A stretch of DNA of 32,634 nucleotides from an uncultured bacterium (GTDB lineage: Bacteria; Patescibacteriota; Minisyncoccia; Phycocordibacterales; PALSA-1337): positions 1-32,634 of the forward strand of contig CAIUUK010000052.1 in assembly GCA_903902315.1 (NCBI GenBank), in the 5' to 3' direction. The notes under the pieces were generated by a model that saw nothing but the letters and a program-made list of their open reading frames with translations, was not told the origin of the DNA and ran no database searches. Position numbers and translations under genes: made by a program. This document shows, piece after piece, positions 6,134 to 32,633 of this stretch. How positions within the stretch are numbered: the stretch's first letter is position 1; the number at the start of each line of letters is the position of its first letter.

Positions 6134-6607
6134 GTGCATATGACCCTCCACCAAACAATCAAAGAACAGATAAAAGACGCTCTTCGTGCAAAAGATACAA
6201 TTCGACTTGATACACTTCGCAGTCTCACTGCTCTTTTCCAAAGCGAAATGATGTCTCAAAATATCTCTGGTGATTACATAACTGATGAAAAGGCTTTGGC
6301 ACTTATCAAAAGAAGTGTTAAACAACACAAGGATTCCATTGAACAATTTGAAAAAGGTGGTCGCGATGATCTTGTCTCAAAAGAAAAAGCTGAACTCAAT
6401 GTTCTTGAGTCATTTATGCCATCTATGATGCCATTCAATGAAGTTAAAATGATTGTTCACATGCGTGTTGACGCTCTCAAATCTGCTGGTACATTTGATC
6501 CAAAAGCTACTGGTAAAATCGTTGGCATGCTCATAAAAGAACTCGCTGGTAAAGCCGATGGCACGATGATCAAAAATGCTATCGATGAATTGATCACGAC
6601 AAAATAG
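6134..6607 (+). CDS. GatB/YqeY domain-containing protein
   Basis: LHQTIKEQIKDALRAKDTIRLDTLRSLTALFQ..KRSVKQHKDSIEQFEKGGRDDLVSKEKAELNVLESFMPSMM..GKIVGMLIKELAGKADG matches the YqeY family pattern. Confidence 0.93.
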   Translation: MHMTLHQTIKEQIKDALRAKDTIRLDTLRSLTALFQSEMMSQNISGDYITDEKALALIKRSVKQHKDSIEQFEKGGRDDLVSKEKAELNVLESFMPSMMPFNEVKMIVHMRVDALKSAGTFDPKATGKIVGMLIKELAGKADGTMIKNAIDELITTK

Positions 6608-17982: not shown

Positions 17983-18432
17983 TTAATTGATAAATCTAAC
18001 AAGATCAGACTCCAAAGTTCCATCTCTTAGGGCTTTATCAATAATTTGTGGCATAACATTTACACCATCGTCTTTACTGACCCACTTAAGTTCATAAATT
18101 TCATCAGCATGTGAACCAGAAGGTTTATTCATCTTTGCATAATCAGCAGAATTTTTTATTTCAAAGAAAAATTCGACGGATTGTGTATCATTATTCACAT
18201 AACCAGTATCGTCACTTATGTAATTATTTACATAAAATAATCTTCCCACATCTCCTTTGATACCAAGCTCTTCTTCCAATTCACGACTCAAACATTCTTT
18301 AATCTTCTCACCCCATTCTAGGTGTCCGCCAGGTAATACATAATAAGTATTTTTTGGTGAATGTTTAACAACCAATAATTTATTGTTATGAATAATAATC
18401 GCCCTGCATCGAATTATGATTTTTTTATCCAT
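17983..18432 (-). CDS. NUDIX hydrolase
   Basis: NUDIX box GGHLEWGEKIKECLSRELEEELGI. Start trimmed to MDKKIIIRCRAII; the upstream ORF-track extension to 18543 is antisense to a recombinase remnant. Confidence 0.9.
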   Translation of the reverse strand: MDKKIIIRCRAIIIHNNKLLVVKHSPKNTYYVLPGGHLEWGEKIKECLSRELEEELGIKGDVGRLFYVNNYISDDTGYVNNDTQSVEFFFEIKNSADYAKMNKPSGSHADEIYELKWVSKDDGVNVMPQIIDKALRDGTLESDLVRFIN

Positions 18433-18436
18433 ATAA

Positions 18437-18614
18437 TGTTTTATACCGATGTGACCTTCAACAGGACATACCTCGAACCTGGGACAAAATCCTCGATACG
18501 CTGGCAGCTTTAAATAGCCGGGGTGAATTGCCCGACTTATCAATCATTCCTGGATTTAATCGTTATGATGCAGATGCCGATCCAAATGAGGATGGCAAGG
18601 GTGATTGTAGCTAA
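18437..18614 (+). pseudogene. Remnant 1: C-terminal end of a large serine recombinase
   Basis: Frame from 18459 reads QQDIPRTWDKILDTLAALNSRGELPDLSIIPGFNRYDADADPNEDGKGDCS*, aligning with the intact recombinase C-terminus RQDIPRTWDRILDTLSALNSQDLLPDLSLIDDI.... 18 nt identical: ACAGGACATACCTCGAAC at 18461-18478 and 31186-31203. Confidence 0.9.
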
Positions 18615-18652
18615 GTGGTGCCGTGAGGTAAGACACTAGAAATTGCCAGAAT

Positions 18653-18691
18653 GGCAAATAAAATGACCCTCCGCAAACTTCACGAAGGGCC
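18653..18691 (-). terminator. Candidate terminator of the structured RNA
   Basis: Minus strand GGCCCTTCG-TGAAGTTTG-CGGAGGGTC followed by ATTTTATTT; 9-bp stem needing G-U pairs, so minus polarity. Confidence 0.5.
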
Positions 18692-19080
18692 GATTAGCAA
18701 GCAATTCCATCTTGTTATCTAATCTTCCAACTAGGATGTTTCACCTTTTCTCTAGGACGGTTGGTATATCCACAGACTTTCGTCTGCTGTTGTTTTCCAC
18801 GGAATGGTCTTATCTTTGATCGTGGATGCTGGGTCGATTAACTATCCTGCGGGGGAACAACAGTGATTCCCTTGAAAGCAACATTGATCGCATATCTGTG
18901 CCTACCCCATTGGAGGCCTCAATGCGCATTACTTTCGCTACAGAATAGCGTCCATTAGCACTCAGCTTTACAGGTCAATTGACCCGCCTGTGTCTGAGAA
19001 TAGATCTGCCATGCAATGTAAGGATTTTATGCGGGCATGTTGGAATACTTCAAACAAAGCTTCACCTCCTTTCTCCAGAA
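18653..19080 (-). ncRNA. Candidate structured noncoding RNA of unknown class (approximate ends)
   Basis: No ORF of 60 aa or more on either strand. Consecutive stem-loops, including CAGAC-GAAA-GTCTG, GATTAG/CTAATC with inner CAAG/CTTG, CCAAC/GTTGG, CCACG/CGTGG, GGGAA/TTCCC, CGCTA/TAGCG and CTCAG/CTGAG enclosing ACAGG/CCTGT; ends in a 9-bp stem with two G-U pairs plus ATTTTATTT on the minus strand. Confidence 0.5.
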
Positions 19081-19122
19081 CATAGAATAGCATCTTATAT
19101 TAACGAATACTATGTCTGAACA

Positions 19123-19239
19123 CTAAACAGCGCAGGGTTGTTGACTGACTTGTTGATCATCTCTGAATTTGTGCGACCTAGGACGAAGGACGATTCGAGT
19201 AAGGATAAAAAAGGTTATTGTAGCGGAATGGTAGAGTGA
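19123..19239 (+). pseudogene. Remnant 2: more diverged C-terminal end of a serine recombinase
   Basis: LNSAGLLTDLLIISEFVRPRTKDDSSKDKKGYCSGMVE* aligns with remnant 1 (LNSRGELPDLSIIPGFNR...DGKGDCS*) and the intact copy (LNSQDLLPDLSLIDDISKRRD...). Upstream homology is frame-disrupted. Confidence 0.7.
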
Positions 19240-19277
19240 GATAGGACGGGTATACTTGCCAGGGGCAAGAAAATCTA

Positions 19278-19802
19278 TCAATGATTTAGAAAGTTGAAAC
19301 TGCCACTGATCGGCACTGCTGTTTTAAACCTAATCTCAAAATTAATCTCATACCCATTTCCCCTTTTAAAACAAAATTCAGTTATTTCACCAAAATTTGG
19401 CTTCAAAGGGCAATCAACCAAAATCTCGACAAAATATTTTCTGAATTCACGCCAATAGTCAGTTTCATTAAGTTTATTTGGGATATTAAATTGGGTAAGT
19501 AGACTGATCAACTGTTTTCTAAATTCTACAAAATCAACCATTTCTAATACAAGGCTCGGTTGGTATTTATTTGCTAATATTGTTTTCTCAATGTTTTGTA
19601 ATATTATCTTCATTGGAGACGCTTCAATAATTTTCGCGTGCAGAGCCCAATCAGTATGCCTTTTAAGAAGTGGAAAATTATTTGACAAGTTCTCATTTTC
19701 AATAAGTTTGCGTATCTTCGATAATATAAATATTACATCTTTTTCATCCGCAACAGGTTCACCAAAAGCCTGGCATAGTTTATTAATGAGTTCATTTGTC
19801 AT
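19278..19802 (-). CDS. Hypothetical protein
   Basis: 174-aa ORF, mostly helical composition; no family recognised. Confidence 0.6.
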   Translation of the reverse strand: MTNELINKLCQAFGEPVADEKDVIFILSKIRKLIENENLSNNFPLLKRHTDWALHAKIIEASPMKIILQNIEKTILANKYQPSLVLEMVDFVEFRKQLISLLTQFNIPNKLNETDYWREFRKYFVEILVDCPLKPNFGEITEFCFKRGNGYEINFEIRFKTAVPISGSFNFLNH

Positions 19803-20249: not shown

Positions 20250-21191
20250 CTACATTGTATCATTGGACCTTTCTTCGCCATCTATATAATCAGGTACGTC
20301 CTTATTTCTTGCAGCGATAATCTTTTTCATTTCGTCTATTTTAACGATCATCGCGATATCGCCATATTTAAGAGCGATGGTTCGGGATTTTTTTAAGTGC
20401 TTCTGTGCCTCTCGAAAGCGGTAGGCCGTCTTCAATTCATTTGCAAGATTGAAATACGCACTCGAAGCAGCGGAGTCATCGATCTGTTCAAGAAGCTTAC
20501 CAGCTTCCAAGAGATCCTTCTTAAAAGACTTCACATATACAGGTAATTCACGGACCGTGACATTAATTAAGGCAAAGAAATTTTCAAAGATGGGATATCT
20601 GCATGATTGTGATTTTACCCACAATTTTCCATATAAGGTACCTCTGAGACAATCCGTCTTTCGTTGTAGATATTTTGAGCTTGATACCTGACCTCTATCC
20701 ATGAGGATATATGCCTTAGTCTTCTTATCCTCACTTTTATTTGCCAACGTCAGGGCTTGTTCCAAAAGATTATCGGACTCATCTTCCATTTTCTTAGTTT
20801 CAGATGTGAGAACCTCGTACTCCATCTTGTCTGCTTCAGTAGCAAAACCAATCCAACCGGGCGTCAGCGTAAGACTGGTCACGCGATGCCACCTGATCGT
20901 AATCTGAAACCTAAGAAGATCGGCCTTTCGCGCCATAAAATGCGCTTGGTAATTACTAATACCAGCTTGTGTGGTTATCTTTATAGCTTCCTCGGCAAGA
21001 TCGATTAACTTAGCATTATTCTTTACAGGACTAAGACTCGACAAAGAAGCGTCAATTAATCGTAGACGCAAGTTTGGTTCCTTGATTTTTGATTCCAAGA
21101 CAACGAGAATAGCCGCCGCTTCTTGGCGCTTGCCTTGTATGGCTAAATCCATAGCTTTTTTAAGTTCGTTTTCGTTTGACATGGCGACCAT
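20250..21191 (-). CDS. Alpha-helical repeat (TPR-like) hypothetical protein
   Basis: Ala/Leu-rich helical repeats (AAAILVVLESKIKEPNLRLRLIDASL..SAYFNLANELKTAYRFREAQKHLKKSRTIALKYGD); overlaps the upstream CDS by 32 nt in the track (possibly GTG/internal start). Confidence 0.65.
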   Translation of the reverse strand: MVAMSNENELKKAMDLAIQGKRQEAAAILVVLESKIKEPNLRLRLIDASLSSLSPVKNNAKLIDLAEEAIKITTQAGISNYQAHFMARKADLLRFQITIRWHRVTSLTLTPGWIGFATEADKMEYEVLTSETKKMEDESDNLLEQALTLANKSEDKKTKAYILMDRGQVSSSKYLQRKTDCLRGTLYGKLWVKSQSCRYPIFENFFALINVTVRELPVYVKSFKKDLLEAGKLLEQIDDSAASSAYFNLANELKTAYRFREAQKHLKKSRTIALKYGDIAMIVKIDEMKKIIAARNKDVPDYIDGEERSNDTM

Positions 21192-22107
21192 ATTGATACC
21201 AGTTTTTTAATTTATACCAGCGCATCTCGACCAAATGCCGTATAATTTTCAGGATAAAAAAGAAATCAAGGGGATATCTACGAAACCAATGACGCCTAAC
21301 CTTGGAATTATGGGAGACGAAATATTTATAACAGTGACCGACAACCATCCTATTCATCTCCTCTACCTCGTTATTACTCCACTCAGCGTAACCTCGAAGC
21401 GGACTCCAACTCATACAGAGCGCAATCTCTGGCGACAGAGGAAGTGTAACCTGCACATTTTTTTGGCTGAGCCCAGGACTATGAAATTTCTGAAATTGAA
21501 GGTCTGGGTTAAATAGATTGCACGGATCGTCAGATGTGACGAATTTAGATCCTCTTTTAGCACAAAGAAAGGCGACACTCATTGGCATCAGCATCTCCGT
21601 GATGGACGGTAGCATCTGAACGATACTCATTCGATGGCTATTCTTTTGAAATTCCTTCATTTTCTCCGACTCTTTCGAATCGATGCCATGAGATTTTTCC
21701 ATTGCCTCAGTATGCTCTATCAGCTCGTTATGGAAGCGATCCATGTTATCGCGATAGCGCGGTGTCCTTTGAAGCATTGCCGCGACAAAAGCGCAGAGTG
21801 TTATATGCTCCTCCTCACTCAGAGGCAAGTGCTTCTGGATCTTGTTTCTAAATATATTTGCGTATCTTCCTTCCAGATTTGAGAGGGTCTCTTCGATAGA
21901 GTAGTCTTTCTCACCAGTCTTTAGGCGAAGAGTGTATAAGTCAGTCTCAGTGAATATATTTGATGGAGCTTTTTTTCGTCCTACCTTTTCACCTCGATTG
22001 AATATCCAGACGTATGGCTCCTGACCGGCAGGAGTCTTTGGATCGACCCATCCGCGCAGATAGCACTCAGGGACGTAATGTTGTTTTGTGGGTTTATTCT
22101 TTGCCAT
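21160..22107 (-). CDS. DUF4238 domain-containing protein
   Basis: KPTKQHYVPECYLRGWVDP...VWIFNRGEK...ETDLYTL...CAFVAAMLQRTPRYR...KFVTSDDPCNLFN fits DUF4238. Confidence 0.85.
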   Translation of the reverse strand: MAKNKPTKQHYVPECYLRGWVDPKTPAGQEPYVWIFNRGEKVGRKKAPSNIFTETDLYTLRLKTGEKDYSIEETLSNLEGRYANIFRNKIQKHLPLSEEEHITLCAFVAAMLQRTPRYRDNMDRFHNELIEHTEAMEKSHGIDSKESEKMKEFQKNSHRMSIVQMLPSITEMLMPMSVAFLCAKRGSKFVTSDDPCNLFNPDLQFQKFHSPGLSQKNVQVTLPLSPEIALCMSWSPLRGYAEWSNNEVEEMNRMVVGHCYKYFVSHNSKVRRHWFRRYPLDFFFILKIIRHLVEMRWYKLKNWYQYGRHVKRKRT

Positions 22108-22110
22108 ATG

Positions 22111-22770
22111 TTACATCTTGGAATCGTTAATCCATGGAATCCTAAAAATCTCTTCCCAGTTATAGTGAATCGATGGCATCAACTCACTGAAACCTGCCTG
22201 ATTAAGAAGTAATTGATATTTGATGACGAGCTTTTCGAGAAGAGCCAAAGCGTCATCGACTTCTTGAAAACTAAGATCTATCTTGAGAGTCTTGTCCTTA
22301 TTTTTGTGAGCAATCCTTGTGTGTCGAAATTCCTTTATAGTCTTGGTCACCGCTAATAGGTCACTTATGTCCTTTTTGACAAAACTGATATCGATTTCTG
22401 CACCTGTACCGAAGTGTTCGACGAAATGCGCCTCGCCTATTTGGCGTGGTAGAGTTTTATACTGATCGGCAAACCATGATTTCGTAATGATTTTGTGATT
22501 TCTTTCAAGATCCTTCAGAAGCCTGATCAAGCTTATCACCACGGTTTTTTCGTCGACTTGTCTGGCAATACCAATAACCATCGCAGCACCGTAATTAGCC
22601 TGTAAATGATCCCAAAAGAAGTTATCCTTGCTCAGCTTTGAATTCGCCTTAATGATTTCACCTAAACGATGAAAAACATGCTGGTTCTCAATTAGGTCAG
22701 CGATGTCGTTCGTAATCTCTTCTATTTCTTTTTTCCATTGTGTAATTTTGGGTGGCATAGTGACAATCAT
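22111..22770 (-). CDS. HEPN/AbiU2-like hypothetical protein
   Basis: All-helical; EFRHTRIAHKNKDK contains an R-x5-H motif typical of HEPN RNases; stop lies 3 nt before the DUF4238 start. Confidence 0.6.
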   Translation of the reverse strand: MIVTMPPKITQWKKEIEEITNDIADLIENQHVFHRLGEIIKANSKLSKDNFFWDHLQANYGAAMVIGIARQVDEKTVVISLIRLLKDLERNHKIITKSWFADQYKTLPRQIGEAHFVEHFGTGAEIDISFVKKDISDLLAVTKTIKEFRHTRIAHKNKDKTLKIDLSFQEVDDALALLEKLVIKYQLLLNQAGFSELMPSIHYNWEEIFRIPWINDSKM

Positions 22771-25122: not shown

Positions 25123-25223
25123 AAGAAACCCACCACATGGGTGAGGACTTGCGCCCTCCGCGCCGGTTTCCCGACGTGGCTGATCAGAGCAACCCCATAT
25201 GATGGGTTTCTTACTCTGATCAG
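25123..25223 (-). promoter_or_regulatory. Structured leader RNA or dyad element upstream of the 25110 to 22821 cluster
   Basis: 18-bp stem AAGAAACCCATCATATGG (25195-25212) with CCATGTGGTGGGTTTCTT (25123-25140), complete only with two U-G pairs on the minus strand; overlapped by a perfect 10-bp repeat CTGATCAGAG/CTCTGATCAG (25180-25189/25214-25223). Confidence 0.6.
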
Positions 25224-25405
25224 ACTCCTTTCGCCATGCCCAGCAACGCTGAGTTTAGGCTACTTCAAAAAATATTCAGTTGTATAAAATACTATACCAT
25301 AAAATTTACCGATTGCACAAAGAAGTGCACAATGCATAATACAATAATGCCCTTGTTAAAAATCTATTGGGGCGTAGACTGAAAGTAAAATTACACGATA
25401 TTACT

Positions 25406-26856: not shown

Positions 26857-28224
26857 ATGAAAGAAAAAATCTTCAATTTATTCAAGAAAAATAATATCCC
26901 GTTCGAATTCTTAGACAACGACTTTGCCATTGTATGCCCATTCAGGCCGGACATGGATGGTAACAGCAATTATCTCGCAACTTTCCAAATGAATAGTGAG
27001 ACTGGCAGAGGATCATGTGCCTATTGTAGCGAATCCGCCGATTTTGACGAGATTCTGAAGCTGTTGAACATAAGTGAGGGTACTTCACCTTCGGCCGAGA
27101 AAAAACGCACGTTCGAGCAAATTTCGCCTCGGACAGGCATTTCTTTATCAGATAAAGTGATTGCAATACCAAAATTACATGAAAGCATTTTACAGACATG
27201 GACAATGGGTGACATCCTAACCCACGACTTCGGCACAGAAGAATGGCTGGTTGAATCACTTATCCCAAGCCAAGGCATGATGATACTCTCCGGAAGTCCA
27301 GGAGACTTCAAGACGTGGGTAACTATCCATATAGCCCTCTGTGTTTCTCGTGGCACTTCTGTATTCGGGAGATTCAAAACTGAACAAGGAAACGTCCTCG
27401 TTATCGATGAAGAAGATAATCTCCGTGATCTGAAAAAACGCCTGGGATTACTTGGGGCCAAAGGCACCGATAATGTCCATTACCTTTCGCAAAACAACAT
27501 CAAGGTCGATGACGAAAAAAGTCGCGATGCTATTCTAAAAATAGTCAAAGAAAAAAATGTAAAACTCCTCATCATTGATTCTCTCGTCCGAGTACATCGT
27601 CAGGACGAGAACGACGCCAAAGGTATGGCCAAAGTCTTCAGTAGTCTCCAGGAAATAATAAAGGCTGGCGCATCTATTCTTTTCACTCACCACCACAGGA
27701 AACAAATGGGGTTCGGTCCTAACAATCCAGCACAAAGCATGCGTGGTTCTTCCGACATTCTGGCTGCCGTTGACTGTCATGTCACCATTGAGAAAAAGAG
27801 GGACGAAGATAATCGTCTTATCCTTCGACAAACAAAACTGCGACAAGCTGAAACATTAGCACCGTTCGAGATAAATATAATTAAGAGTGAATTTGGTCCA
27901 TCTGGTTTTGAATACGCAGGTGGTCACGATGAAAAAAGGAAAAAAGCTGAGGAAGTTTCTAAAGCTGTAATTTCTGTACTTGCCGAAGATATTAAAAGCC
28001 GAATGGAAATCCATGAGGCTTTAGGTAATGAATTTGGTAAAACAGCTATAGACAACGGAATTAAAATAGCAGAAGAAGCTGGTGAGATAAAACGTGTGCC
28101 AAAGGTTGAGCTTTCATCTGAAAATAACCATAAGGCCTTCTATCGACTCTCAGCCACCAACAAGCTTCCTGCTTCCCAACCACATATAGATGCAGAAAGT
28201 CAGGAAGATAATTTATCAGCATAA
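26857..28224 (+). CDS. RepA-like RecA-fold ATPase/helicase with N-terminal CHC2-like zinc motif
   Basis: VCPFRPDMDGNSNYLATFQMNSETGRGSCAYCSES; atypical Walker A SGSPGDFKTWV; Walker B KLLIIDSLVRVHR; ILFTHHHRKQ. Confidence 0.85.
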   Translation: MKEKIFNLFKKNNIPFEFLDNDFAIVCPFRPDMDGNSNYLATFQMNSETGRGSCAYCSESADFDEILKLLNISEGTSPSAEKKRTFEQISPRTGISLSDKVIAIPKLHESILQTWTMGDILTHDFGTEEWLVESLIPSQGMMILSGSPGDFKTWVTIHIALCVSRGTSVFGRFKTEQGNVLVIDEEDNLRDLKKRLGLLGAKGTDNVHYLSQNNIKVDDEKSRDAILKIVKEKNVKLLIIDSLVRVHRQDENDAKGMAKVFSSLQEIIKAGASILFTHHHRKQMGFGPNNPAQSMRGSSDILAAVDCHVTIEKKRDEDNRLILRQTKLRQAETLAPFEINIIKSEFGPSGFEYAGGHDEKRKKAEEVSKAVISVLAEDIKSRMEIHEALGNEFGKTAIDNGIKIAEEAGEIKRVPKVELSSENNHKAFYRLSATNKLPASQPHIDAESQEDNLSA

Positions 28225-28280
28225 TTCTTCTTCCTAATTTCCTAAAATACATAATTAGGAAACAGGAAGCTACCACTAAA

Positions 28281-28943
28281 ATGACAGAAATTCTCCCAAA
28301 CAATACACCTGATAATAAGAAAGACGTAGTGACTAAACCACTGACTCCAAAAGAGAAAGCTATAGCCCTTCTCAAGAAATACTTCCCTGGTATGAGGCAT
28401 CCAGCCATCAAAGATGATCCGGATTATGTGTTCAAGACGGTTCTAAAAAATCTTAGTAATCTTCCTGACGATATCGACACAAATTCGACTGTCGAAAGTT
28501 ACATTCACGGTGAGTTATACGACCTACTCATGGCTACCGGCGTGGGGACACAGTTTGCCTCTGCCAGGGCGGTCCCATACCGCTACAAAGCTCTATTCAT
28601 CAGCTTTACACGCCAACTCATAGAAGAATACAAATGTGATGGATCGAGCCAGATTGCCGTTGCAGAGATGGCTGCCAGTGCTTACGTTCGAGCTATCAAG
28701 ATTCAGGGAGAAATGGTGAGTATGCCTTCCCAAATCGACCTCATGACTCCTGAGTCAAATAGATATTACTCAATATTGAGCAAAGACCTTGATCGTGCAG
28801 AGCGCCATTTTATAACAGCAGTAGGAATGCTCAAACATATGAATACTCCGCAAGTTTCAGTAAAGATAAATACCCAGAATGCATTCATCGCAGATAAGCA
28901 GCAGTTCAATAAAATTGACGATAAAAACAATGAAGCCAAATGA
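28281..28943 (+). CDS. Hypothetical protein of the element core
   Basis: 220-aa ORF collinear with the helicase and recombinase genes. Confidence 0.6.
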   Translation: MTEILPNNTPDNKKDVVTKPLTPKEKAIALLKKYFPGMRHPAIKDDPDYVFKTVLKNLSNLPDDIDTNSTVESYIHGELYDLLMATGVGTQFASARAVPYRYKALFISFTRQLIEEYKCDGSSQIAVAEMAASAYVRAIKIQGEMVSMPSQIDLMTPESNRYYSILSKDLDRAERHFITAVGMLKHMNTPQVSVKINTQNAFIADKQQFNKIDDKNNEAK

Positions 28944-29255: not shown

Positions 29256-29510
29256 ATGATAAATTCGTCCTCAAATCTCAATAAGATTAAAAACCAGAGA
29301 TATTATGATCTGGGGACAAATTTCACGTATGAAGACTGTACGACAAGGAATGACAAAGTCAGTGAAGTAACTAACTACCATTTCAGCCAAGATACGATAG
29401 AATCACTACGTGAGCTCGGAAGTGTTATTATACAAATACGAAAACGACTCACTACGGAGGGATATACTATTGCCGATGGTAAAATAGTCAAACTCAACAG
29501 TATTAAATGA
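29256..29510 (+). CDS. Small hypothetical protein
   Basis: 84-aa ORF whose stop overlaps the start of the recombinase ORF. Confidence 0.5.
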   Translation: MINSSSNLNKIKNQRYYDLGTNFTYEDCTTRNDKVSEVTNYHFSQDTIESLRELGSVIIQIRKRLTTEGYTIADGKIVKLNSIK

Positions 29511-31351
29511 CAATGAAAACTATTGATAAAAATGGAGAGAAAATAATGGCTGAAATTCAAAGCGGTAAATACCGCGAGCACTATTTGATTTACAATCGTA
29601 AAAGTACAGACGACACTGATAACCAAAAAAACTCAATAAAGTACCAAAGGACAGAGAATACACGTTTTGCGTTTCGCGAACATCTTCCAATTGCCACACT
29701 TAACCTCGAAGGATTTGCTACAAATGGCATAATTTCAGAACGACATTCAGGTTTTAAAGAAAGAGGTGAACTGACCTTTGGTGAAGGCAACAAGGTCCAA
29801 TATAGTGTCGATCGACCGAAATATTATCAACTCGCACAATTATTAAGTCAGAAGTACTTCAAAGGTGCTATATTTCTCTGCTGGGATCGAGCAAGTAGAA
29901 ATAAAGGTGACGATACAATCCTTCGTAAACTCATGAAGGCAGGGGTTGATATCCGCTTCACACTCGCTCAATATGACAAGACAAGTGCCGGAGAACTACA
30001 TATGGACATTGATGGCATGTTCTCTGAGCACCACTCACGAGTTACTCGCGAAAAAGTAACATTAACCATACGTAATAGTCGATCACGTGGGCTGTGTACT
30101 AACAGAGCACCGGTCGGATATCTCAATCTCGGTACTATGGATCATAAACCGTTTGATCCTAAACGAGCTCCTATAATAAGAAAACTTTTTGAAATCGCTG
30201 CAACTGGTGATTGGAGTCTGGCAGATCTCGCTCGTTGGGCTATTGAACAAGGTTTTACCATGCCACCAATGCGCCGTCGCCGAACACAAGATGAAATATT
30301 AGCTGAGGAAGAAGACGACATACGTCTAAATATCGAACCTATTGAACGTCTTCCAACTTTCACTTCTATTCATAAGATACTCACAAATCCATATTATAAA
30401 GCCCTTGTACCTGATGAGAATGGTAATTTAATACGAAGCACGAGCCACGAAGCAATGGTCCCAGATGAATTATTTGATAGGGTCCAAAGACAATTAGCAA
30501 AGAAAAATAAAAGTGCTCATTATGCAGAATTTTTGGACCATCCACTTCGTGGTATCGTAAATTGTGCTGAATGTACAAGAGCATTTACACCTTATCCTAA
30601 AAAAGGAACGATGTATTTTGGATCACGATGTAGATCTGGATGTACTAATAAACTTAAAAGCTTCAACTTTGATTTTATCGAAAAGAAAGTTGGGGTCTTA
30701 ATTGAAAGTCTCTCCTTTACAAAAGATGAAATTGCCGAAATTGATGCACGTGCAAGTACTGATATAGCCCTCTTGGATCAAAAACGTATTAGTCAATTGG
30801 AAATTAACGAGCGAAGAAAGAAAAAAATACGTGAAGATCTAAGTTATTTAGGTACTAACAGACTTATGCTACTTAAGACAGGCGCTTATACACCAGAGAA
30901 GCTCGTAGCAGAAGAGGCTACACTTAATCTGGAACTTACCTCTCTATGTGAAGCAGAAGTGACATCTGATGTCTCAATGCGAGAAACAATCAAAGATGTA
31001 GTAAAACTTTCCGAACTGCTAAAAGATGCCCTACCTTGGTACTCTATTGCAAAACCCGAAGAAAAAGACCTGATGATACGAGTTATCTTTTCCGAACTCA
31101 GCATATCTGAAAATTCGATGCGGTATAAGTGTAAAAAAGGATTTCAAGCTCTCTCGAGCCGTTTCATCCCCTATGGTGACCAACGACAGGACATACCTCG
31201 AACTTGGGATAGAATTCTGGATACACTGTCAGCATTAAATAGCCAGGATTTGTTGCCTGATTTATCGCTCATTGATGATATTAGTAAACGCCGGGACGTA
31301 ACAGATCCGATGAAGGACGGTCGTGATGATGGTAGCGCGGCGGTGAAATGA
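29507..31351 (+). CDS. Large serine recombinase / site-specific integrase
   Basis: Resolvase N-terminus YLIYNRKSTDDTDNQKNSIKYQ; FLCWDRASRNKGD; recombinase domain RAPVGYLNLG..ILTNPYYKALV; zinc beta-ribbon LRGIVNCAECTRAFTPYPKKGTMYFGSRCRSGCTN; coiled coil. Confidence 0.94.
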   Translation: MTMKTIDKNGEKIMAEIQSGKYREHYLIYNRKSTDDTDNQKNSIKYQRTENTRFAFREHLPIATLNLEGFATNGIISERHSGFKERGELTFGEGNKVQYSVDRPKYYQLAQLLSQKYFKGAIFLCWDRASRNKGDDTILRKLMKAGVDIRFTLAQYDKTSAGELHMDIDGMFSEHHSRVTREKVTLTIRNSRSRGLCTNRAPVGYLNLGTMDHKPFDPKRAPIIRKLFEIAATGDWSLADLARWAIEQGFTMPPMRRRRTQDEILAEEEDDIRLNIEPIERLPTFTSIHKILTNPYYKALVPDENGNLIRSTSHEAMVPDELFDRVQRQLAKKNKSAHYAEFLDHPLRGIVNCAECTRAFTPYPKKGTMYFGSRCRSGCTNKLKSFNFDFIEKKVGVLIESLSFTKDEIAEIDARASTDIALLDQKRISQLEINERRKKKIREDLSYLGTNRLMLLKTGAYTPEKLVAEEATLNLELTSLCEAEVTSDVSMRETIKDVVKLSELLKDALPWYSIAKPEEKDLMIRVIFSELSISENSMRYKCKKGFQALSSRFIPYGDQRQDIPRTWDRILDTLSALNSQDLLPDLSLIDDISKRRDVTDPMKDGRDDGSAAVK

Positions 31352-31445: not shown

Positions 31446-32633
31446 CTATAATGATTCAAAGCTCGCCCTAATAGCCCGTGCCATAAGATTTCTTCGTGTT
31501 TTTAAGAAAGCATCATAGTTCATGTCGTAAAAGTCTTTGGGCAAGCAATGATCGCTTAAAATAGCATCCAACTCTGACTCCTTGCCTACATAATTGCTTT
31601 TTTTAATGGCAGCAAAGTAATCGTTTGGCGATGAATCACTAATTTCAATGTTATCCTCAAATTCAAGATAGGTAAAATTTGCTACCTGGTTAATTTGTCG
31701 GCGATCTAACTTAAATGTGCTCTCCAAATAATTCTTTGGAAAGATATGATGTTTTTCCAAATCTTTTTTCCTTTTTTTCAAGGTCGGGTCAAACAAATCA
31801 CTGACTCTCCTTTCGGAAAACAGGACTTTTGCGCCTTTTCTGATAAGGCTGGCAAAAAAAGTATTTCTAAGTGCATTTTTGTTTGATGACGAAACCAATA
31901 ATGTATTCGGAACAGTAATTTCCCAGAAGTCATTTGTGAGTTCGCTCGCTATTGCCGCATTTAATAGTTTGATAAAGTCATCTTTACCCTTGGCATTTTT
32001 GAAATAATTTAAGTCCGACTCCATCTGTGTTTCAGGGGAATAGGAATAACGGCTGGTTACAGAAGAAAAGAAAAACCACTTCCCGATATTTCTTTCCAAC
32101 TCCTTATGCCCCAGCCCATGTTTTTCTTTGGCTATTAAATATAGAATATATGCGTTAGCGATGTTGTTAGAAGAAGAAATAAGGTCTTTACTCTTAAAGC
32201 CAATCCCAAGAATTATTTTTAAGAATCCGTGCCAGTTTGTGTTGTCTAAAACCGTTGCTTGAGTTTCTTTGAATTTTTCAAATTGATCTTCCCTCAAAGA
32301 AATGGACACCTTTTTTGTGGCAAAATCGCGACCAGTCAATATCGCATAAGCATCTTTCATTTTACCCCTGCCAAAGCCAAGTCCTACGACAATACGAACC
32401 AAATCTTTGGGTGTTGGTTCAAATATGTAATTATATGGCGACTCCTTCTTATCTTTCTCTGGAACCTTTTTTGCCGATTTACAGAAATCATCAATTTGAG
32501 AACGGCCTTCGGGCCAAAAAACCGAAAGCAACGTAAGGATGAAGTCGGCCTGCTTTAATACCGTTCCCTTGCTGTTAATCCTGGTAAATATCTCAGCTAC
32601 CTGTTCCTCTGTTAAATCAGGGACAATTTCAAG
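31446..32633 (-). CDS. DUF262/GmrSD-like protein with C-terminal HNH (DUF1524-like) domain; N-terminus beyond window
   Basis: The ORF stays open to the window end (LEIVPDLTEEQVAEIFTRINSKGTVLKQADFILTLLSVFWPEG), containing the DUF262 motif FTRINSKGTxLxxxDF; C-terminal LEKHHIFPKNYLES..NQVANFTYLE. The ORF-track start at 32531 is an internal TTG. Confidence 0.85.
   Translation of the reverse strand, partial: LEIVPDLTEEQVAEIFTRINSKGTVLKQADFILTLLSVFWPEGRSQIDDFCKSAKKVPEKDKKESPYNYIFEPTPKDLVRIVVGLGFGRGKMKDAYAILTGRDFATKKVSISLREDQFEKFKETQATVLDNTNWHGFLKIILGIGFKSKDLISSSNNIANAYILYLIAKEKHGLGHKELERNIGKWFFFSSVTSRYSYSPETQMESDLNYFKNAKGKDDFIKLLNAAIASELTNDFWEITVPNTLLVSSSNKNALRNTFFASLIRKGAKVLFSERRVSDLFDPTLKKRKKDLEKHHIFPKNYLESTFKLDRRQINQVANFTYLEFEDNIEISDSSPNDYFAAIKKSNYVGKESELDAILSDHCLPKDFYDMNYDAFLKTRRNLMARAIRASFESL

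Follow-up and report, generated by a model that had tools for sequence, protein, structure and literature searches.

What is encoded at positions 18653–19080 of the 32,634-nt stretch of DNA analysed here (the window, which is contig 52 of a 0.77-Mb genome in 69 contigs)? A sequence-only reading had taken these roughly 430 nt, in which it found no open reading frame, for a large structured noncoding RNA read on the minus strand and carried between two recombinase remnants. According to our analysis, 18660–19080 of the minus strand is most probably a genuine gene for a structured RNA of about 420 nt, which carries its own terminator and falls outside the known RNA families. We estimate at about 0.68 the probability that this stand-alone gene represents a rare, accessory, pseudoknot-containing RNA family that is real and absent from Rfam, a value that covers the RNA family and does not extend to the contact in trans considered below.

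Gene content and folding of the segment

We detected no gene at 18653–19080 and no protein homology on either strand. Frames of both strands had no noteworthy match in Pfam or PHROGs, and the minus-strand frames, read through, had no relative in plasmids or in the 34 other genomes of the genus. ARAGORN called no tRNA or tmRNA for the candidate RNA. A decayed protein gene was not found in these frames either. The G+C content of the segment is about 45%, compared to 32–40% in most of the surrounding sequence. For the genome as a whole, the size, the gene content and the lack of Shine-Dalgarno use suggest membership of the Patescibacteria/CPR.

The fold was compared to shuffled sequence. Over 18653–19080, the z-score was −1.96 on the minus strand and −0.35 on the plus strand, so the excess lies mainly on the strand that had been predicted, where the segment beats the shuffles and where the terminator is also found. 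With bounds of 18660–19017, picked after the fact, the minus strand reached −3.41 (0 of 400 shuffles as good; plus strand −1.64) and stayed at −3.09 once the terminator was removed. The upstream sequence (19017–19280) folds at chance level. Because these bounds are post hoc and 7% of same-size windows along the contig have a z-score ≤ −2.5, folding energy by itself is no more than suggestive. By comparison, the known LOOT RNA of the window has a z-score of −5.3, and the strongest fold of the window (28161–28320 (−), z −6.5) is formed by a long inverted repeat with an element gene on each side.

Most of the stems described earlier were recovered: CTCAG/CTGAG around ACAGG/CCTGT (18961–18998), GGGAA/TTCCC (18853–18871), CCACG/CGTGG (18797–18825), CAGAC-GAAA-GTCTG (18773–18786) and GATTAG/CTAATC (18692–18724). 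CGCTA/TAGCG is present too, but the minimum-energy fold prefers pairing of GCUAUUCUGU with GCAGGAUAGU. The terminal stem with its T-rich tail turned out to be an intrinsic terminator of 12 pairs, running from 18691 to 18665 and followed by ATTTTATTTG; the same promoter and terminator scan gave a weak promoter at the RNA start. The segment 18660–19080 thus combines a strand-specific fold excess with a terminator, as a stand-alone structured ncRNA does.

Rfam covariance models run over the window gave no match at gathering score except for LOOT elsewhere, and nothing at 18400–19350 even at E ≤ 5. The models of GOLLD, ROOL, OLE, HEARO, tmRNA, RNase P, and group I and II introns do not match the candidate RNA. 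The LOOT RNA (RF03000, 79 bits) is located at 25143–25261 (−); this family is carried by 16 of the 35 genomes of the genus, with three copies in the window's genome.

Features of the candidate RNA and its surroundings in the window (L081, homologous locus between secY and adk)
Feature	Position	Strand	Evidence or remark
Structured RNA gene (candidate)	18660–19080	−	Fold excess (18660–19017), homolog L081:1440–1832 with matching ends
5' end of candidate RNA (TTCTGGAGAAAGGAGGTG); 3' end is the terminator	near 19080	−	
12-mer AGAAAGGAGGUG	19063–19074	−	Identical in homolog; perfect Shine-Dalgarno sequence
5' domain, UCUAUU/AAUGGA helix over CTCAG/CTGAG hairpin	18951–19004	−	Fold and model-fitted alignment
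Core, long-range helix (18940–18949 with 18841–18850) enclosing hairpins	18841–18949	−	Independent minimum-energy folds, RNA versus L081
Core hairpin CGCAU[UGAG]GCCUCC..GGC[ACAGAU]AUGCG	18889–18926	−	Identical dot-bracket geometry in L081
Hairpin holding CUGUUGU (18857–18863), proposed pseudoknot 5' half	18853–18871	−	
GGAAAACAACAG, proposed pseudoknot 3' half (ACAACAG, 18787–18793)	18787–18798	−	GGAAAACRACAG in both RNAs
Hairpin GGAU..GUCC (GGGC..GCCC in L081)	18755–18771	−	Two-sequence comparison
Intrinsic terminator	18665–18691	−	Terminator scan
Copy 1, recombinase C-terminal module and attachment arm (core TGTGACC at 18450)	18450–18620	+	Profile E 1.2e-31
Copy 2 of the same module, decayed	19120–19230	+	Profile E 6.5e-4
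Intact serine recombinase	29507–31351		

A structural homolog between secY and adk

The middle third of the RNA (18840–19005) served to build a covariance model, R2, with which 397 genomes of the order were scanned. Besides the source, only two records were found at E ≤ 1 (G067:C16 and G145:C12), and these were counted as one homolog since they are identical over 6.2 kb. The matched site, L081, comes from another family of the order, where it occupies noncoding sequence that separates secY from adk; the match is on the coding strand of these genes, and the RNA-like segment there spans about 400 nt. As the match has an E-value of 0.03, which is a per-genome value, and as its score by sequence alone is expected about 11 times by chance over the 397 genomes, it needed independent support.

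Two motifs outside the R2 model are shared: the 12-mer AGAAAGGAGGUG is found exactly at the 5' end of each RNA, and GGAAAACRACAG is found 3' of the core of both, at a matching place. AAAGGAGGTG has a background rate of 0.0025 per kb in other loci and GGAAAACRACAG has 0 occurrences in 0.8 Mb of other loci. Both RNAs end in a terminator hairpin, and their minimum-energy folds, computed independently, have an equivalent core. In a sequence-only alignment, 22 of 22 tested pairs, chosen from the RNAalifold result on this same alignment, hold in both RNAs, 4 of them by compensatory change; pairing falls to 32–48% of cells when the partners are slid. On the sequence-only alignment, 3 of the 11 pairs of the core hairpin are compensatory. 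In the model-fitted alignment (A8), which leans to structure by construction, 12 pairs are compensatory, and so are 4 of the 6 pairs of the outer helix of the 5' domain. The ACAACAG strand is predicted to be unpaired in the window RNA, and in both RNAs ACRACAG is able to pair with CUGUUGU of the preceding hairpin, which we propose to be a pseudoknot.

In the reverse direction, an nhmmer search with the L081 RNA over 634 kb of the window's genome returned the 18660–19080 site as its sole match. Beyond the shared motifs, the two RNAs are not significantly similar overall in their 3' part, and R1, a single-sequence model of the 3' part, does not match L081. Rfam gives nothing above gathering score for the homolog. 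The rare shared motifs, equivalent folds and compensatory pairs support L081 as a structural homolog of the window RNA; covariation is thin, as there is only one independent homolog. None of the three outcomes that the sequence-only reading had named as refuting it (a fold no better than shuffled sequence, no covarying homolog, a decayed protein gene) was observed. A two-sequence model (R3), run over 100 sources, found just the two known sites, and the candidate is probably a new structured RNA family with these two sites.

Other candidates were rejected. The best matches of R1, L066 (the coding end of pth) and L068, fall within coding sequence and are false, which shows that a model built from one sequence can give false matches. 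A further R1 match, L067, is noncoding, yet its 5' side has no independent support.

The RNA looks accessory, since a congener (G194, Adk protein 82% identical) carries other sequence in its secY–adk spacer and lacks the RNA. R2 found no copy in the 34 other genomes of the genus either, and we conclude from these two absences that the RNA is rare and comes and goes. Adk-anchored synteny over 29 loci revealed no RNA beyond G067, and at the nucleotide level no similarity beyond chance turned up in phages, in plasmids, in 60 relatives or in 367 genomes from the class.

The Shine-Dalgarno strand and competing explanations

The 12-mer forms a perfect 12-bp duplex (−19.3 kcal/mol) with the standard 16S rRNA tail CACCUCCUUUCU. 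The 16S gene of the window's genome (L194:1276–2842 (−) in G000:C60; 1347.9 bits, full length) ends in GTGGAATATTTC: the anti-Shine-Dalgarno is lost and this end cannot pair with the 12-mer. GGAGG precedes 2 of 314 genes in this genome versus 3 at a control position, and no Shine-Dalgarno use was seen by eye in the ribosomal-region genes of G067. As the 16S lacks the anti-Shine-Dalgarno and the genes use no such signal, the 12-mer is not an ordinary ribosome-binding site; with its own partner gone, it would be conserved for another reason or for foreign ribosomes. We give little credence to a mobile RNA family that keeps this strand to engage other ribosomes, or for an unrecognised purpose; such ribosomes may be those of a former or alternative carrier, or of the bacterium on which these small cells live.

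Docking, in which the RNA would serve as a ribosome decoy by pairing its 12-mer with the 16S rRNA 3' tail, was favoured at first, given the strength of this duplex and the invariance of the strand. It is weakened by the 3' end of the cell's own 16S, with which pairing is impossible, and the GGAGGUG part of the strand is predicted to be paired in L081; we now consider it very improbable. The chances are slimmer still for a short mRNA whose Shine-Dalgarno sequence drives a small leader peptide, the folds being regulatory. AGGAGG does stand 7 nt before a TTG opening a 30-codon frame, but L081 has no ATG, GTG or TTG at that spacing, and the 16S of this cell lacks the anti-Shine-Dalgarno, which its genes do not use.

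Another explanation is that the segment belongs to the 174-aa gene at 19278–19802 as a long and structured 3' untranslated region, with a transcript ending at the 18665 terminator. This gene is on the same strand, the scan shows no minus-strand terminator between 19278 and 18691, and the promoter at the RNA start is weak; however, a decayed recombinase module intervenes, and the L081 RNA shares the 5' end but has no relative of the 174-aa gene before it, which makes a 3' tail quite unlikely. The alternative that we take most seriously, though we still judge it unlikely, is that the segment is left over from dying mobile elements, has no function and folds by chance, and that the secY–adk match is chance as well. 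The decay of flanking module 2, the 7% of same-size contig windows with a z-score ≤ −2.5 and a local sequence similarity to L081 that is not significant genome-wide all fit remnant DNA. Against it, the RNAs have in common two rare motifs that the search model did not include and that occupy corresponding positions, the independent folds are equivalent, and the strand bias is accompanied by a terminator.

For the RNA family that we favour, we propose the following working. The RNA would be transcribed on its own, from a putative promoter, into a predicted transcript stopping at 18665, where the terminator was found. A compact fold would then be held by the core helix, by the hairpin inside it and by the pseudoknot between CUGUUGU and ACRACAG, elements that the two sequences support. 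Tentatively, and with some doubt, the folded RNA may act in trans, making its main contact, or pairing, through the invariant purine strand AGAAAGGAGGUG at its 5' end. Finally, the RNA, which is present in some genomes and absent from others, may travel between genomes as cargo; here it is surrounded by a group of serine-integrase attachment arms, and elsewhere it occupies the variable secY–adk spacer.

Recombinase arms and known systems

The two recombinase remnants noted earlier are both real, but they are copies of the detachable C-terminal end of an integrase, not two decayed integrase genes. In the intact recombinase of the window, the C-terminal piece (about 57 aa) starts at a GGTGACC core. 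Full-length recombinases of relatives match only to residue ~559, where the gene runs into other sequence: in three loci this is a tRNA-Glu gene (its 3' end), and in others a different C-terminal piece. The C-terminal piece also occurs alone elsewhere. From this break and these lone pieces, the attachment site, with core GGTGACC, is most likely inside the recombinase's own gene. Integration into tRNA-Glu or beside other arms apparently swaps the recombinase C-terminus; arms of two types and cassette-like arrays were noted (the window and loci L022, L023, L024, L047 and L048).

Arms are found in the window at 18450, about 19120 (decayed), 20140 (second type) and 31175, and the candidate RNA sits between the first two. 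TTCACC at 19062 was dropped as the attachment core of module 2, since this stretch is common to L081. Carriage of the RNA by the recombinase is not general, as no recombinase was seen close to the secY–adk site of L081.

Other genomes of the genus have different RNA-like segments, with promoter- and terminator-like ends, right beside the same arm. One is conserved (L030:1190–1470 and L029:1194–1472; 89% identical, z −2.8), with a promoter-like start and a terminator, and is convergent with the recombinase arm. Two further small-RNA-like units, with a promoter-like start, stems and a terminator, are present next to that arm at L028:1456–1595, L053:6192–6321 and 6355–6494 (in tandem), and L031:1701–1830. 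The window also encodes DUF4238, an AbiU2-like HEPN and a weak GmrSD_C-like gene (21160–22770 and 31446–32531 (−)), possibly defence cargo. The same recombinase arm occurs in contigs labelled as Limisphaerales and Verrucomicrobiales MAGs (L052, L057), by transfer or misbinning.

To our knowledge, few large structured RNAs have been described from ultra-small, uncultured bacteria, and nothing in Rfam represents the present one. The ends of its consensus are defined and a core fold and a proposed pseudoknot are included, which provides a search model usable on larger metagenome sets. That a Shine-Dalgarno strand is invariant in a cell whose rRNA has no tail to match it is a sharp oddity that can be tested.

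OLE is also a large ornate RNA (PMC12286853), but the candidate is not recognised by the OLE model of Rfam. GOLLD and ROOL are large, pseudoknotted, stand-alone RNAs of unknown function in phages and prophages (PMC12286853). The candidate resembles them in being large and stand-alone with a proposed pseudoknot; it differs by its length of about 420 nt, the absence of an Rfam match, a location away from tRNAs and its Patescibacteria-like genome, and one of its two sites is outside any recognised mobile element. LOOT is likewise a structured RNA of this genus, with one copy 6 kb away in the window, but is 121 nt long, and no match to the candidate was obtained with the LOOT model. Integration-dependent phages of the BPs type, in which integration changes the integrase C-terminus, are comparable in respect of the flanks alone. 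The unusual attP location of these mycobacteriophages (PMC4557955), inside the integrase gene, is the likeness, whereas here the enzyme is a serine recombinase and the hosts are small-genome bacteria.
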